From the NCBI GenBank assembly GCA_029883265.1, contig JAOUJM010000011.1, positions 1 through 46,992 on the forward strand: a stretch of DNA of 46,992 nucleotides, given 5' to 3'. The notes under the pieces were generated by a model that worked only from the letters and a program-made list of their open reading frames with translations, was not told where the DNA came from and searched no databases. This stretch comes from Gammaproteobacteria bacterium (GTDB taxonomy: Bacteria; Pseudomonadota; Gammaproteobacteria; S012-40). Position numbers and translations under genes: made by a program. Shown here in pieces: positions 7,523-15,765 of this stretch. How positions within the stretch are numbered: the first letter of the stretch is position 1; each line of letters opens with the position of its first letter.

Positions 7523-7609
7523 GCCGGGGTGGCGAAACTGGTAGACGCGTTGGATTCAAAATCCAATGGTAGTGATACCGTGTCGGTTCGAGTCCGACCC
7601 TCGGTACCA
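7523..7609 (+). tRNA. tRNA-Leu (anticodon CAA)
   Basis: A class II tRNA of 87 nt with encoded CCA. The anticodon stem TTGGA/TCCAA holds the loop TTCAAAA, giving anticodon CAA. A long variable arm follows. The T arm is GTCGG-TTCGAGT-CCGAC (7582-7598). The D region reads GGTAGACGCG, and discriminator A73 fits the leucine identity set. The acceptor stem pairs GCCGGGG with CCTCGGT, so the first pair is G1.U72 where E. coli tRNA-Leu(CAA) has G-C, plus a second G.U at 5.68. It reads UUG codons. Promoter and terminator immediately flank it, so it is a monocistronic unit. Confidence 0.96.
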
Positions 7610-9663: not shown

Positions 9664-10557
9664 ATGGCAAAAAATAGCAAAATTCTATATGAACAGCGTC
9701 TTGAACATGTGCTACGTTATATCGATGACCACTTAGAACATCCACTCAACTTAGAGCATATTGCACAAACTGCCTATTTCTCACCTTATCATTTTCATCG
9801 TTTGTTCCACGCGCTTACCGGCGAAACCCCCAATGCTTTGATCACTCGTCTACGCTTGGAACGTGCCGCCAATCAAATGCTTTACCAGCGCAAGCCCAGC
9901 ATTACTGATATTGCATTACGCTCCGGCTTCCAAACCAGTTCCAGTTTTTGCAATGCTTTCAAAAAACACTTTGGTATCAATCCCTCTCAATGGCGTAAAC
10001 AAAATAGCAAGAATGGACAAGTATTTATTAATCAACTTGTCGATAATCAACTCATGATGAAAAACGAAACACAACACTTGGAATTTCCCGTTCATCAACA
10101 AAAACGCAAGGCACTCCATATAGCGTATGCAAGCAGTCGTTCGGGATACGATGAGCAGAGTATCGCTCAGGCCTGGCAGAAGATACTAGCCTGGGCTGAG
10201 TCACAGCATTTGCTCAATGACAAAACGCAATATATAAGCATTGCATTTGATAATCCGGACATTACCCAAGCGCATCAATGCCGGTATTTCGCAGGCATTG
10301 TAATTGATGACCCCTGTCTGATCACACCCGCGGGTATAGCACATTATTATTTGCCTGCAGGCGATTATGCAATATTACAGTTTAACGAAGATATAGCATT
10401 AGTTCCCACTGCTTATCAATATCTATATAAGCACTGGCTGTTGCAAAGTGAATTTCAAGCAATCGATTCACCAACGTTTGAATATTTATATCAGCTAGGA
10501 CCGGATAAAAATAGACGATTGCGCACGGATATTTGTTTACCTATTGCACCTTTGTAA
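9664..10557 (+). CDS. AraC-family regulator with GyrI-like effector domain
   Basis: The product is 297 aa. Residues 5-110 form the double helix-turn-helix of AraC/XylS regulators: PLNLEHIAQTAYFSPYHFHR for the first helix pair, then SITDIALRSGFQTSSSFCNA and FKKHFGINPSQWR. Residues about 140-297 match a GyrI-like/SOUL-fold ligand domain, ending in DICLPIAPL. This fusion (Rob and BmrR relatives) typically senses small amphipathic or toxic compounds. The next gene, 24 bp downstream, encodes a stand-alone GyrI-like protein, so the pair is probably an operon. The ligand cannot be read from sequence. Confidence 0.9.
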   Translation: MAKNSKILYEQRLEHVLRYIDDHLEHPLNLEHIAQTAYFSPYHFHRLFHALTGETPNALITRLRLERAANQMLYQRKPSITDIALRSGFQTSSSFCNAFKKHFGINPSQWRKQNSKNGQVFINQLVDNQLMMKNETQHLEFPVHQQKRKALHIAYASSRSGYDEQSIAQAWQKILAWAESQHLLNDKTQYISIAFDNPDITQAHQCRYFAGIVIDDPCLITPAGIAHYYLPAGDYAILQFNEDIALVPTAYQYLYKHWLLQSEFQAIDSPTFEYLYQLGPDKNRRLRTDICLPIAPL

Positions 10558-10581
10558 AATTTGTTTTTTTAAGGAGTTAAC

Positions 10582-11190
10582 ATGAAAAAAATTGATTACA
10601 AAAAAGAATTTAAGAATTTGTACAGTGCAAAAAAAGGCAAACCTGAGCTGGTGGTAGTTCCAGCACTCAATTATCTTGCTGTTCAAGGTGCAGGCGCGCC
10701 AGGTGATGACAATTTCAAACATGCCATCGAAGCCTTATTTACATTGGCTTATACGCTTAAATTCATGGTTAAAAAAAGCGAACTGGCGATAGACTATGGC
10801 GTCATGCCGTTACAGGGTTTATGGTGGGCCGAGGACATGAGCCAATTTTCCGTTGAGAAAAAACAAGACTGGCTATGGCAAATCATGATTATGCAACCTG
10901 AGCTCATAAATAAAAAACTTATTAACCAAGCATTGACGCAGGCCAAACAAAAAAAACCAGAGCTACCACTGGATACAATCGAATTTATTAAATTCAAAGA
11001 AGGTAAGTGCGCACAGGTTTTACACCAAGGGCCGTTTGCTGAAGAGGGTCCCACCATACAGGCTTTACATCAATTCATTCATGGACAAGGCCTTGCATTA
11101 CGTGACAAACATCACGAGATTTATTTAAACGATTTTAATCGTACCGCACCAGAAAAACTCAGAACCATTATTCGCCAACCCGTGGCATAA
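10582..11190 (+). CDS. GyrI-like small-molecule-binding domain protein
   Basis: The product is 202 aa and opens MKKIDYKKEFKNLYSAKKGK, with the motif LNYLAVQGAGAPGDDNFKHA followed by ALFTLAYTLKF. This start pattern is typical of the GyrI-like family annotated in many bacteria. Family members bind hydrophobic small molecules and some hydrolyse cyclopropanoid compounds. There is no signal peptide, so it should be cytoplasmic. AAGGAG at short spacing precedes the ATG. It lies 24 bp behind the AraC/GyrI regulator and is probably co-transcribed with it. An inverted repeat follows at 11203-11230. Confidence 0.85.
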   Translation: MKKIDYKKEFKNLYSAKKGKPELVVVPALNYLAVQGAGAPGDDNFKHAIEALFTLAYTLKFMVKKSELAIDYGVMPLQGLWWAEDMSQFSVEKKQDWLWQIMIMQPELINKKLINQALTQAKQKKPELPLDTIEFIKFKEGKCAQVLHQGPFAEEGPTIQALHQFIHGQGLALRDKHHEIYLNDFNRTAPEKLRTIIRQPVA

Positions 11191-11369: not shown

Positions 11370-11927
11370 ATGGACTTACATAAACTGAATCCCTGGAATT
11401 GGTTTAAGCACGAAGAAGCACCGGGCAATAAAAGCGTCACCGTTCCAGTCAAACACGGAGACAAAACCCAATCTCAACAAAGTGTTAACTATCTAAGCCA
11501 AATACATCAGGACATTAATCAACTATTTGAAAAATTATCATCAGGACAAGGTTTTGGTGCTTGGAACGGTTTTTCAGATGAAAACTTTTCACCCTTGTTT
11601 CGTGCCGAAGTGAATATCGCCAGTGATAAGCAACAATATTCAATCACCCTGGAAGCGCCCGGCTTGAGTCAAAAAGATATTTCAATTGAATTACAGGATC
11701 GAGTACTTGTTATTAAAGGTAGCAAACAACACGAAGAAGAAGATAAAAACAAACATTTTTATCGAATTGAACGACGTTATGGAAGTTTTCAGCGTATATT
11801 AGCTATTCCCGATGATGCAGATGCTAATCAAATCAAGGCGAGAATGGACAAAGGCGTTTTAACAATCATCATTCCACGACATGAGTCCAGCAAAAAAAAT
11901 GTGCAGCAAATTAAAATAGATAGCTAA
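11370..11927 (+). CDS. Small heat-shock protein, Hsp20/alpha-crystallin family
   Basis: The product is 185 aa. The alpha-crystallin domain covers about residues 75-180, with the family features ITLEAPGLSQKDISIELQDR, YGSFQRILAIPDDAD and AxxxxGVLTIIIPR. The N-terminal 70 residues are variable and Gln/Ser-rich, as usual. It acts as an ATP-independent cytoplasmic holdase for unfolding proteins. A strong AAAGGAG precedes the ATG. I could not find a convincing sigma-32 promoter. It is convergent with the retropepsin-like gene, only 28 bp apart. Confidence 0.93.
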   Translation: MDLHKLNPWNWFKHEEAPGNKSVTVPVKHGDKTQSQQSVNYLSQIHQDINQLFEKLSSGQGFGAWNGFSDENFSPLFRAEVNIASDKQQYSITLEAPGLSQKDISIELQDRVLVIKGSKQHEEEDKNKHFYRIERRYGSFQRILAIPDDADANQIKARMDKGVLTIIIPRHESSKKNVQQIKIDS

Positions 11928-11955: not shown

Positions 11956-13071
11956 TTATTCTCGTGGCACTAACAGTAATTGTTTTTGTGTCTGATCGAT
12001 GGAAAAACGAAAATGCTTAAGAAAATTCATGCCCAACAAACCTTGGTAATGATCTTGTGGTTCTAGCGGCAGAACCAATACGTCAAATGGGGTGATTGAT
12101 GCACTACCAATAGCCGCTTGCTGATGCCGGTAACTTTGAGCCTGAGTTTGGCCATTGGCTGTTTGCACAGTCACAAGCTGACCAGGCTCCCCCGCCAAGC
12201 TCAACTCGTAGTAGTCAGAATCACGAACTACACTCATGCTTGCCCCAGTATCGATTAATAAATTGAGAGGGTGAGCATCGTCCAAACTAAGCGAAACCAA
12301 ATAATGCTCACCGATTTTACGCAAAGGAACCTGTAGCTGGCCAGCTATCGAATTTTCGCCGTGTGAAGTGTTCAATTTTTGCAACAAGGTTTGGGCTGAA
12401 CCATATTCATTACTATGTGGACTAATTAAACTAATGACTTGCTCCGCTTCAAGCGTTTGTCCTGACTGCATCAAGTAACCTGCAAGCTTAAGTTGATATG
12501 CATAATTGCTTGGCTCAGCTTCGGCGAGAAAGTTGTACAATTCTATCAATTCCGGTAGTTGCTGATTGGTGCTTAAACCCGCCTCATAGCGCTCAATCGA
12601 TTCTTGCAAATATTCAGCCGCTATCTTTTTGTTGTGCTTATCTAATATTTTATGCTGACCTAACATTAATAGTTTAATTGCATGAACTTGGCTTTCTCTA
12701 CTCAATAACGCTGCATATTTTTCATAAGCCAACCAGTCTTCCGGCTCCACCACAAAATAGTCCATAAAAAAGTCCCACAAACTTAACGCAGGTTGTGGTT
12801 TACTTAAAAACGCTAAAAGTTGTTGATGTAGATTTTGCTGCTGCTGCTTATTTTGAGAAAATTTGGCAAGCTCATATACTCGTAGGAATTCGTCATAATT
12901 TGCCTTGTCCAGCCAATTTTCGTGGAGTGCAGTTCTTTCTGACTGATGTTGTGCAATTGTCGGCGCAGGCTTTGAGACGTTTCGCATTAGCGGACTATCC
13001 CACCATTGGTGAGCTTGCCAACCGCTAACTAGACCTAGTGTAAATACTATAAACAGCCAAGCAAATCGCAT
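11956..13071 (-). CDS. Membrane-anchored retropepsin-like aspartic protease with helical-repeat region
   Basis: The product is 371 aa. Residues 1-20 form a hydrophobic N-terminal anchor or signal (FAWLFIVFTLGLVSGW). Residues about 45-235 are alpha-helical with TPR-like repeats (NFLAEAEPSNYAYQLKLAGY, QSGQTLEAEQVI). The C-terminal domain from about 245 has the aspartic protease motif LIDTGAS with D274, plus the flap and hydrophobic segments (VTVQTANGQTQ, GLLGMNFLKHF) of the single-domain retropepsin-like family. The protease domain should face the periplasm. The substrate is unknown. It is divergent from the Spy-like gene with 206 bp between them. Confidence 0.88.
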   Translation of the reverse strand: MRFAWLFIVFTLGLVSGWQAHQWWDSPLMRNVSKPAPTIAQHQSERTALHENWLDKANYDEFLRVYELAKFSQNKQQQQNLHQQLLAFLSKPQPALSLWDFFMDYFVVEPEDWLAYEKYAALLSRESQVHAIKLLMLGQHKILDKHNKKIAAEYLQESIERYEAGLSTNQQLPELIELYNFLAEAEPSNYAYQLKLAGYLMQSGQTLEAEQVISLISPHSNEYGSAQTLLQKLNTSHGENSIAGQLQVPLRKIGEHYLVSLSLDDAHPLNLLIDTGASMSVVRDSDYYELSLAGEPGQLVTVQTANGQTQAQSYRHQQAAIGSASITPFDVLVLPLEPQDHYQGLLGMNFLKHFRFSIDQTQKQLLLVPRE

Positions 13072-13186
13072 AAAAAGCGCTTTCTTTTGAGAATCGAGTT
13101 AAATGATAATATTGAAGCATTTCTGAGTTTGAATTATAGCCGATAGTCAAAGCCAACAACCATAAATTCCTTTCACTTTGCCGTTA

Positions 13187-13204
13187 CAAAACGAAACAAA
13201 ACGA
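13187..13204 (+). promoter_or_regulatory. Direct repeat, candidate OmpR-family response regulator site
   Basis: CAAAACGA occurs at 13187-13194 and again at 13197-13204, exactly 10 bp apart, one helical turn, as expected for tandem binding of a winged-helix response regulator. It lies about 55 bp upstream of the start inferred from GATAAT (13240-13245). That promoter lacks a recognisable -35 hexamer, consistent with activation. Confidence 0.45.
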
Positions 13205-13277
13205 TACCCCGCTGAAAAGCTATTCCCTAGAGTTTAGCCGATAATTTCATCGTCGAATACAACACAGGAGACGACAC

Positions 13278-13724
13278 ATGAAAACATTATTTATCATTAG
13301 CAGCGTCATTGCCCTCATCAGTGCGGTGGCATTATTTAGCGGTTGCTCACGTCACGGCCACAAAGATCCACAGAAACACATGGACTACATGGTCAAAAAG
13401 GCCAGCAAAAAACTTGATTTAAATTCCAACCAAGTCGTGAATCTTGAAGCATTTGGGCAAACACTACTGAATTCATTTGCGGACCACAAAGCGAAAAAAC
13501 AAGAGGCTATGGAAACAGTAAAACAGGCCTTTGCATCTGAACGTCTCGACCAAGCTAGCCTGGTTACGCTGATACAATCACATACTCGCGAGATCGAAAA
13601 TAAAGCGCCACAAGTGATTGCCTCGTTTGCTCAATTTTATGATAGTTTAGATGGTGAACAACAAGCCAAACTACGTGAGCATCTACAGGAAAAAATGGCA
13701 CGTCATCATCGTCATCACGAATAA
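13278..13724 (+). CDS. Spy/CpxP-like His-rich lipoprotein
   Basis: The product is 148 aa. A lipoprotein signal (IALISAVALFSGC) puts the lipidated Cys at residue 23. The mature protein is helical and charged, with a Spy/CpxP-like layout (helix MDYMVKKASKKLDLNSNQ followed by long amphipathic helices), though the canonical LTxxQ repeats are not exact. Both ends are histidine-rich (CSRHGHKDPQKH and ARHHRHHE), suggesting metal binding. In relatives such proteins hold misfolded periplasmic proteins or dampen a sensor kinase. AGGAG precedes the ATG. A response regulator and kinase follow, so it is probably both target and modulator of that system. Confidence 0.75.
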   Translation: MKTLFIISSVIALISAVALFSGCSRHGHKDPQKHMDYMVKKASKKLDLNSNQVVNLEAFGQTLLNSFADHKAKKQEAMETVKQAFASERLDQASLVTLIQSHTREIENKAPQVIASFAQFYDSLDGEQQAKLREHLQEKMARHHRHHE

Positions 13725-13734
13725 TTGCAATTAC

Positions 13735-13766
13735 AGCGGTAGCCACTTTTGGCTCCCGCTACTTTT
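13735..13766 (+). terminator. Imperfect terminator/attenuator between the lipoprotein and response regulator genes
   Basis: AGCGG (13735-13739) pairs with CCGCT (13756-13760), and AGCCA (13741-13745) with TGGCT (13750-13754), with one T/C mismatch between. ACTTTTC follows. It could let the abundant lipoprotein mRNA be partly separated from the two-component genes. Confidence 0.5.
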
Positions 13767-13804
13767 CTGCTATGCTCAACAAGTAATACACACTAGGATG
13801 TAAA

Positions 13805-14479
13805 ATGATCCAAGCTTTATTAATCGACGACGATGAAAGACTAGCGAGTTTACTCACACAGTATTTCACTAGCTACGATATTCAGCTTAGCGCTTGCACC
13901 CATCCCATGCAGGGAATTAAGCAAATCAAGCAAAATCATTATGACATTATTATACTCGATATTATGTTACCCGAGTTCGACGGCTTTGAAACATGCAAAC
14001 GTATTCGCCATTTCAGTGCAATACCTATCATTATGCTCACTGCTCGTGGCGACGTCATGGACCGAGTTGTCGGTCTGGAGATTGGTGCAGACGATTATCT
14101 AGCGAAACCGTTTGAACCAAGAGAACTTACTGCTCGCATTCACAATATTCTTAAGCGAACACAGGGCTCAAGTCATCACCAGGATATTTTGAAATTTGAT
14201 GATTTAGAAATTGATATGAGTCGGCGCGAGGTTCAATTGGGCGGACACATTATTGAGCTAAGCTCCATGGAATATCAGCTATTACAGCTCCTCGTCAAAC
14301 AACCTGGAAAAATTTTTAGTCGTGATGAAATTCTGAATGCGCTCAAAGGCATTGATGTAGAAATTTTTTCGCGTTCCATTGACATTTTAATTAGTCGTTT
14401 GCGGCAAAAACTTAAACCCAGCCAATTTATCAAAACCGTTCGTGGTCAAGGTTACTGCTTTGCAGGCAAATCCCAATGA
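13805..14479 (+). CDS. OmpR-family response regulator (CpxR-like)
   Basis: The product is 224 aa. The receiver domain has the acidic pair DDD (residues 8-10), phospho-acceptor D52 in ILDIMLPEFDG, the conserved T of MLTARGD, and the Lys of LAKPFEPREL. The C-terminal winged helix (about 128-222) ends in the RGQGYCF wing typical of OmpR/PhoB proteins. It should bind DNA as a dimer on direct repeats with 10-11 bp spacing, such as the CAAAACGA pair upstream of the lipoprotein gene. Its stop overlaps the kinase start by 4 nt, indicating translational coupling. CpxR-like is inferred from the Spy-like neighbour and is not proven. Confidence 0.92.
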   Translation: MIQALLIDDDERLASLLTQYFTSYDIQLSACTHPMQGIKQIKQNHYDIIILDIMLPEFDGFETCKRIRHFSAIPIIMLTARGDVMDRVVGLEIGADDYLAKPFEPRELTARIHNILKRTQGSSHHQDILKFDDLEIDMSRREVQLGGHIIELSSMEYQLLQLLVKQPGKIFSRDEILNALKGIDVEIFSRSIDILISRLRQKLKPSQFIKTVRGQGYCFAGKSQ

Positions 14480-15765
14480 ACTGGCTGCACCGTCATGCAC
14501 GTCACACACTCGCCGGACGTTTGTTTTGGTTATATTTAGCCATGTCATTCTTATTCGTGGCATTGCTTATGTTATTGTTTCGCAGCGGTTTTCGCAGTGA
14601 AGTAGAAACCATAGTCGAGCCCCACCTCCAACAATATTTGGATTATCTAGTCGCCGATATTGGCGAGCCAGCAAACATCGAACATGCACAAACATTGGCG
14701 ACAAAACTCCATATACAAATAAAAATCACCAGCAACTATTTAAACTGGAGCTCAAGCAGTAGTATTTCGCAGCCGAGCATCAACGCTAAGATTTTGCGTC
14801 ACTATCAAGTTAAGGGCCGAAACTATTTTATCGGCCATACACATGAGCAAAGTTTCGCTAAAGTTCAAACCGAAAATAGCATATATGAGTTTCTAATTCC
14901 CCATCAACAGTTTTCCCAAAAAAAGAACGGCTTTGCGCCTTTTTTAATCTTATTGGGTATTTTGTTTTTCTTTTATCATGCCACACGTCGACTATTCAAA
15001 CCCATCGATACAATAAAATATGGCATCAAACAAATCGAGCAAGGTGTTTTAAGCCATCGCATAGACGTCAAACGTAAGGATGAACTAGGTGAATTAGCCC
15101 AACACATCAATACCATGGCAGACGAGCTAGAAAGATTACTTGATGCAAAGCGCGAATTGCTGCTTGCTGTGAGCCACGAATTACGCACACCACTCACCCG
15201 CATTAAAGTCATACTTGAAATAGAAAACGACCCTAAACAACTGGATATGATTCGCACTGAATTACTCGACATGGAAAAACTAATAACTGATATTCTAGAA
15301 TCGGAGCGATTGAAGAATCACAGCGCACTTACTAGAACTGAAACCAATTTAAGTCAGCTATTGAAGCAAATTATTGGAGAGGATTTTCGTCAACACAATA
15401 TTAAGCTTACATTACCCATAAGCCCGTGCATTAGCCAACTAGACAAAATGCGTATCACACTAGCCATCCGAAATATTATTGATAATGCCATCAAATACAG
15501 TCAGCAACAAGCACCAGAAGTGACACTTGAATGTAATGACATAATTAGAATTGAAGTGATCAATTACGGGAACGTAATTGAAGCAAGCCATCTTCCGCTC
15601 ATCACCGAACCATTTTATCGAGTCGATCCATCACGACAACGGCAAACCGGTGGTTATGGCTTAGGTTTGTATTTATGCAAACTGATTATAGAGCAACACC
15701 AAGGCAAGTTGACCATCACGAGTTCTACAGATGCAGGAACTCGTGTGAGTATAGTGCTACCATAA
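14476..15765 (+). CDS. Sensor histidine kinase (CpxA-like)
   Basis: The product is 429 aa. Residues about 15-37 form TM1 and 155-172 TM2, with a periplasmic sensor loop between. A HAMP domain follows (FKPIDTIKYGIKQIEQG to about 225). HisKA has AVSHELRTPLTRIK with H234. HATPase_c shows the N box (RNIIDNAIKYS), an F-box-like FYRVDPSR and the G2 box GGYGLGLYLCK. It autophosphorylates and donates to the overlapping response regulator. The HisKA variant SHELRTPLTRI is typical of EnvZ/CpxA-type kinases. The gene ends shortly before a palindrome shared with a convergent gene. Confidence 0.92.
   Translation: MNWLHRHARHTLAGRLFWLYLAMSFLFVALLMLLFRSGFRSEVETIVEPHLQQYLDYLVADIGEPANIEHAQTLATKLHIQIKITSNYLNWSSSSSISQPSINAKILRHYQVKGRNYFIGHTHEQSFAKVQTENSIYEFLIPHQQFSQKKNGFAPFLILLGILFFFYHATRRLFKPIDTIKYGIKQIEQGVLSHRIDVKRKDELGELAQHINTMADELERLLDAKRELLLAVSHELRTPLTRIKVILEIENDPKQLDMIRTELLDMEKLITDILESERLKNHSALTRTETNLSQLLKQIIGEDFRQHNIKLTLPISPCISQLDKMRITLAIRNIIDNAIKYSQQQAPEVTLECNDIIRIEVINYGNVIEASHLPLITEPFYRVDPSRQRQTGGYGLGLYLCKLIIEQHQGKLTITSSTDAGTRVSIVLP

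Follow-up and report, generated by a model that had tools for sequence, protein, structure and literature searches.

The window analysed here, a stretch of 46,992 nucleotides from a Gammaproteobacteria bacterium, carries on its forward strand three consecutive genes. They encode a Spy/CpxP-like (LTXXQ) predicted lipoprotein of 148 amino acids with His-rich ends (13278-13724; identified by profile, pattern and model), an OmpR-family response regulator of 224 amino acids (13805-14479; open reading frame, profile match and tree) and a sensor histidine kinase of 429 amino acids with HAMP, HisKA and HATPase_c domains (14476-15765; open reading frame and profiles). The start of the kinase gene overlaps the stop of the regulator gene by 4 nt, as the preliminary description of this DNA had stated. 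The divergent neighbour of the operon encodes a retropepsin-like aspartyl protease domain protein (11956-13071, minus strand; Asp_protease_2, E 8e-16), for which tblastn gave no match in the operon loci of the relatives. An HSP20 small heat-shock protein gene (11370-11927, plus strand; E 1.8e-26) is situated two genes from the operon, and the same strand also carries the genes for an AraC-type regulator that contains a GyrI-like domain and, after it, a GyrI-like protein on its own (9664-11190) and for tRNA-Leu (CAA) (7523-7609).

Upstream of the chaperone gene, a direct repeat with an exact 10-bp period had been noticed previously. We found this period in the CAAAACGA pair (13187-13194 and 13197-13204, thus 13187-13204 overall), but the two-copy unit was incomplete: the conserved operator unit is GTTACA-N4, present in three copies in the full form GTTACA-N4-GTTACA-N4-GTTAC, and the CAAAACGA pair is its local version. 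The full window operator, GTTACAAAACGAAACAAAACGATAC (13183-13207, plus strand), was defined by the sequence itself, by scanning and by column conservation; it starts at -95 relative to the chaperone gene and its copies, spaced 10 bp and separated by AAAC, have drifted to GTTACA, GAAACA and GATAC. The three-repeat score of the window upstream region was reached by none of 300 and none of 200 shuffled sequences. The promoter had been described as having a -10 box but no -35, and this was borne out. The -10 box GATAAT (13240-13245, plus strand) lies on columns conserved as TAnnnT, and a consensus scan detected no sigma-70-like promoter on the plus strand. A TGAAAAG element (13213-13219, plus strand) occupies the -35 region, and a ribosome-binding site, AGGAGA, was read from the sequence at 13266-13271 (plus strand). 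Column conservation over 33 repeat-aligned loci revealed two common elements, tGAAAAG (columns 30-36) and TAnnnT (columns 57-62); the column table comprised 33 of 35 loci, with L114 and L019 omitted as misses and L111 shifted by 10 bases by hand.

The three-copy pattern was derived by reading upstream sequence at 14 loci, one of them that of the window, and scored over 17 fixed positions, with gene starts in the relatives picked by a script. Scores of at least 13/17 were obtained for 20 of the 24 gammaproteobacterial loci that had not been used for deriving the pattern. Operon-type chaperone genes contributed 38 upstream regions, of which 33 scored at least 13/17 and 29 at least 14. When all 48 chaperone loci were scanned, sister and CpxR-type loci included, these numbers were 35 and 29. 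The 48-locus scan excludes 15 loci that duplicate already counted sites and includes L113, L116, L123, L124 and L125; the 38-locus set is obtained by subtracting ten loci, namely the sister and CpxR-type loci plus L125 and L019, for which no operon-type regulator was shown. The low scorers among the 38 were L018, L113, L115 and L120 (12 each) and L114, which had no operator at all (9/17, p 0.73). The triple repeat is a control site common to many gammaproteobacteria.

How specific is the operator to its own operon? In the 5.27 Mb, 520-contig assembly of the window genome the CAAAACGA pair had a single exact match. Its loose matches (up to 3 mismatches; 59+67) were at or below the level of the reversed pattern (84+95), so that the earlier proposal to look for the motif elsewhere in the genome yielded one exact site and otherwise chance. 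Similarly, the three-repeat pattern with up to 2 mismatches gave 3 sites against 7 in the control, only the window site being exact. Since the operator occurs once in this genome, no large regulon is visible. An extended pattern (three repeats plus GAAA, at most 1 mismatch) detected 17 sites in 16 of 369 genomes of the class and none with the reversed control; the window genome was not among the 16 because its copy has drifted. Twelve of the 17 sites lie upstream of a chaperone gene, and 15 of the 16 genomes have just one site. The other sites adjoin an oppositely oriented operon-type regulator (L145), lie beside a different OmpR-type regulator (L133 and L134) or are found elsewhere (L132 and L144). 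With up to 2 mismatches, 27 carrier genomes contained 42 sites compared with 14 in the control, and 22 of the 42 were the operon itself. This share, together with the class-wide placement, indicates that the operator acts chiefly on the operon it belongs to. Six non-operon carrier sites with at most 1 mismatch were inspected: two adjoin another regulator-kinase pair (G310:C34 and G189:C12), one precedes two genes that, as judged by eye, resemble those of a TetR protein and a large membrane transporter (G359:C17), and the remainder showed no shared theme. The surplus of such second sites relative to the control is small. Some other OmpR-family regulator genes, from beta- and alphaproteobacteria (L041, L058 and L079), are preceded at a distance of about 95-115 bp by two-copy sites resembling GTTACA-N4-GTTACA. 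In addition, a three-repeat site at locus L198 (approximately 1050-2480) has a divergent gene of LTXXQ appearance on one side and another regulator-kinase pair on the other, possibly a paralogous system.

The assignment of the small protein to the Spy/CpxP type was confirmed by the LTXXQ profile (PF07813, E 7.8e-8, 33.4 bits against a Pfam cut-off of 24.3), and two LxxxQ motifs were present in 37 of the 38 chaperones. Its AlphaFold model is all helical (pLDDT 83) and has CpxP (3itf; prob 0.99, E 0.12) as its best PDB fold match, with Spy and CnrX below; a PDB sequence search gave no useful match. The predicted lipoprotein character and the histidines at both ends also held: the lipobox FSGC ends at Cys23 (codon 13344-13346), with 3 His in residues 16-50 and 5 in the last 16. 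The contrast previously drawn with the soluble Spy and CpxP proteins of Escherichia coli is correct, but the anchor is a trait of the lineage and does not define the operon group. By pattern, a lipobox was found in all 8 copies of the window's family and in 4 of 30 chaperones elsewhere, 12 of 38 overall. According to the Asp+2 retention rule, as given in passages of a paper on lipoproteins (PMC6538781), Asp in this position marks retention. Because residue +2 is not Asp, a finding that extends to all 12 anchored chaperones, the outer membrane is the default assumption, and the chaperone lipoprotein probably sits there. A second LTXXQ gene, outside the operon, is located on contig 53 of the window genome (L166, 1321-1845); its product is very His-rich and, as judged by eye, not a lipoprotein. 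No three-repeat site was detected on that contig.

Conservation extends to the order of the three genes, chaperone, regulator and kinase; the chaperone gene is followed by the regulator gene on the same strand in 33 of the 38 loci. In L112 the arrangement is divergent, while L014, L103, L110 and L117 had no regulator in the sequenced flank examined, and some loci, such as L101, L102, L104, L106 and L110, have a second chaperone gene in tandem. In the window, folding and a stem scan located a terminator-like hairpin (13735-13760) with a T-rich tail between the chaperone and regulator genes (13735-13768 in all, plus strand). A stem with a T-rich tail was present in 13 of 24 chaperone-regulator gaps, compared with 1.8 expected from shuffles; 9 gaps outside 40-240 nt were skipped in this count. 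The overall folding of the window hairpin region was no outlier (z -1.2), and no Rfam family was found within the operon. The hairpin itself is observed; that it acts as an internal attenuator between chaperone and regulator is likely. In Sinorhizobium, a tolC mutant showed expression of the predicted operon SMb21562/21561/21560 raised 69-, 27- and 14-fold, according to passages of a published study (PMC2912261). This gradient would fit attenuation by analogy, rather than demonstrate it. In genome G046, shared sequence fragments (L017, 1943-2737, and L201, 1232-1684) split the chaperone from the regulator gene; they probably represent a mobile or repeated element.

The 34 operon regulators formed one group in a 78-row tree (89/36), with a 31-row core at 100/99; the support for the whole operon clade is thus modest. 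The tree contains 78 of the gathered proteins, L018 being dropped for a bad frame and many named proteins omitted for size. E. coli CpxR and the CpxR proteins of Alteromonadales grouped together and outside the operon clade (branches of 98/81 and 100/94), and OmpR and RstA were placed elsewhere, RstA on a long branch. The separation of the clade from all three E. coli regulators indicates that the operon is not a CpxRA ortholog. The window regulator is 47-61% identical to operon regulators, 39% to CpxR, 39% to OmpR and 35% to RstA. It scored 169 bits with the CpxR model (cut-off 341) and 149 with the RstA model (cut-off 330), and was also far below the cut-off of the OmpR model.

RstA contacts DNA through Arg199, Val203 and Arg207 and recognises the RstA box TACATNTNGTTACA, as stated in passages of PMC4117788. 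At the positions that we match to these contacts, the recognition helix of the 34 aligned operon regulators has Arg first and last, with Ile, Val or Met as a hydrophobic residue in between. The last of these positions is Asn in CpxR types and Arg in the operon clade, a difference that pairs suggestively with the first operator base (T and G, respectively). We regard this match as a lead and not as a rule, because a sister regulator group (Reyranella and others) keeps Arg with TTTAC. A Spy/CpxP gene on a pSymB record of Sinorhizobium is accompanied by a regulator that resembles the sister group most (67% identity to L025); we take this regulator, from gene content and not from locus tags, to be of the SMb21561 type.

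For the periplasmic part of the kinase (about residues 34-152) no Pfam match was found, and hhalign comparison with E. coli CpxA, RstB, EnvZ and BaeS, used as single-sequence targets, gave probabilities below 1%. A pattern, PhlxqYxxylxxdIGxPP...WsS, was common to this part of the kinase at 25 loci, and its structure model was of fair confidence; the fold search with the kinase bore chiefly on the catalytic region. The window kinase remained below the cut-offs of the CpxA models, with 142 of 486 bits for the E. coli type and 156 of 800 for the Legionella type, matching in the kinase core only.

Taken together, these results make it probable that the three genes form an autoregulated Cpx-like envelope-stress operon belonging to a gammaproteobacterial clade distinct from CpxRA. 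Three other explanations were weighed. A CpxRA-CpxP ortholog with rearranged gene order would share the chaperone family, the position and orientation of the 10-bp repeat in the promoter and the general logic, all of which are seen here. The placement of CpxR in a separate clade, the lower identity to CpxR than to operon regulators, the low CpxR model score and an operator built on GTTAC, not TTTAC/GTAAA, make such orthology very unlikely. Alternatively, the repeat could be the target of some other OmpR-family regulator in the cell, with the adjacent pair only responding. In favour of this, 11 places in the window genome exceed the Trans_reg_C cut-off, and of the 17 sites in the class four or five are found in other positions, two of these beside a different OmpR-type regulator. 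Yet the operator tracks the operon through its 12 chaperone-associated sites and its single occurrence in nearly every genome that has it. Moreover, among 80 named loci that encode a homolog of the regulator, the operator precedes the chaperone gene in the three whose regulators are closest (L021-L023); the scores of 14 or more at L041, L058 and L079 come from two-copy sites in front of the regulator gene. We therefore hold control by a different regulator to be highly improbable.

The third alternative is a metal-responsive system: copper or zinc would be bound by the His clusters, and the kinase would have the chaperone as its metal sensor or buffer, much as ZraSR has ZraP. In its favour is the composition of the chaperone. 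In the window's family (8 copies), His accounts for 16% of the residues at positions 21-36 and for 20% of the 14 C-terminal residues, against 4% of the core; the corresponding values for E. coli CpxP, Spy and ZraP together are 8%, 5% and 3.5%. The chaperone also has a weak Metal_resist match (E 1.1e-4, below the Pfam cut-off), and CnrX is among its fold matches. The wider comparison points the other way: no metal gene adjoins the operon among the scanned neighbours, the heavy-metal models gave 173 bits for the regulator (cut-off 279) and 111 for the kinase (cut-off 293), two or more His among the 14 C-terminal residues are common in the other chaperones of the operon group (19 of 30), which mostly have no anchor, and E. 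coli Spy has His near its N-terminus too. The His clusters are real and recurrent, and metal sensing or repair by the chaperone is possible, but a system that responds primarily to metal seems to us unlikely.

The proposal of an activator-dependent, self-regulated Cpx-like promoter is well supported by the promoter layout, the gene order, the chaperone family and the published stress induction of the Sinorhizobium relative. Judging from the protein families, the kinase would use its own periplasmic domain to sense disturbance of the envelope and would phosphorylate the regulator, whose protomers would align in head-to-tail order along the GTTACA repeats just upstream of the -10-only promoter. 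The bound regulator would then recruit RNA polymerase at an operator and promoter layout that are conserved among the relatives. Much chaperone would be made, and the hairpin would pass part of the transcripts into the regulator and kinase genes. The chaperone lipoprotein would hold misfolded envelope proteins and would probably damp the kinase, as CpxP does. This is an ordinary kind of system; particular to it are its own operator, the lineage-specific lipid anchor and the likely internal attenuator. In the open-access literature we found no description of the gammaproteobacterial operon or its operator and no experiment on the clade. For Cpx-like regulation beyond the well-studied CpxRA lineage, the operator offers a promoter code that is testable and class-wide, paired with a difference in the DNA-contacting helix of the regulator.

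The anchor allows a further reading, which we rate as distinctly unlikely: the chaperone might combine the jobs of CpxP and NlpE, being both the chaperone output and a reporter of lipoprotein sorting. Passages of PMC6538781 describe NlpE as an outer-membrane lipoprotein that feeds the Cpx kinase. With sorting healthy, the anchored chaperone would leave for the outer membrane; with sorting or acylation failing, for example under copper, it would pile up at the inner membrane beside the kinase and set the activity of the latter. In its favour, the NlpE family was absent from all 9 searched genomes of the window's family (0 of 13 genomes overall, with a positive E. coli control) and none of the anchored chaperones has Asp+2. 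If true, this would reveal a way in which bacteria that lack NlpE monitor lipoprotein sorting.

Compared with CpxP-CpxRA of E. coli, the operon likewise combines an LTXXQ chaperone with an OmpR-type regulator and a kinase. The E. coli cpxP promoter carries TTTACGTTGTTTTAC, of the form TTTAC-N5-TTTAC, at -94 on the chaperone strand (-95 in the window), followed, as judged by eye, by a TAnnnT hexamer at a nearly equal distance, and the small RNA CpxQ is annotated directly after cpxP, in the place of the operon hairpin. In contrast to the operon, cpxP is divergent from cpxRA, CpxP is no lipoprotein, the regulator belongs to another clade and the cpxP repeat has two TTTAC copies instead of three GTTACA. 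The CpxR box GTAAA-N5-GTAAA was not found at the window chaperone promoter, whose reverse complement is of the GTAAC type with drift. Passages of PMC12802237 state about 100 targets for E. coli Cpx, while the window genome has one site. The RstA box of E. coli and Klebsiella resembles the operator in its tandem TACA sites 10 bp apart and its GTTACA half, and RstA has the same kind of recognition-helix contact residues; rstAB differs in that no chaperone gene adjoins it and in the 35% identity of RstA to the window regulator.

In the ZraS/ZraR system of E. coli, ZraP, a small His-containing chaperone-like protein, modulates the kinase, and ZraR is of the NtrC type. Unlike the window chaperone, ZraP is encoded divergently from ZraSR and is no lipoprotein. 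NlpE resembles the window chaperone as a lipoprotein but is of another family. In Pseudoalteromonas xiamenensis we found GTTACGCTCTGTTACATTCCGTTGC followed by TGAAAAG, starting at -106 before the genes for a small secreted-looking protein, which has no Pfam match, a regulator and a kinase. The SMb21562-60 genes of Sinorhizobium meliloti differ from the operon in their sister-type regulator, the lack of a visible lipobox, their alphaproteobacterial host and their repeat, TTTACATTTCTTTAC at -111, which is of the TTTAC-N5-TTTAC type and unlike the GTTACA operator. They share with it the order chaperone-regulator-kinase and the upstream repeat, and induction by envelope stress is reported for them (passages of PMC2912261); the window operon displays both the gene order and the 10-bp repeat upstream of the chaperone gene that characterise this Sinorhizobium type.
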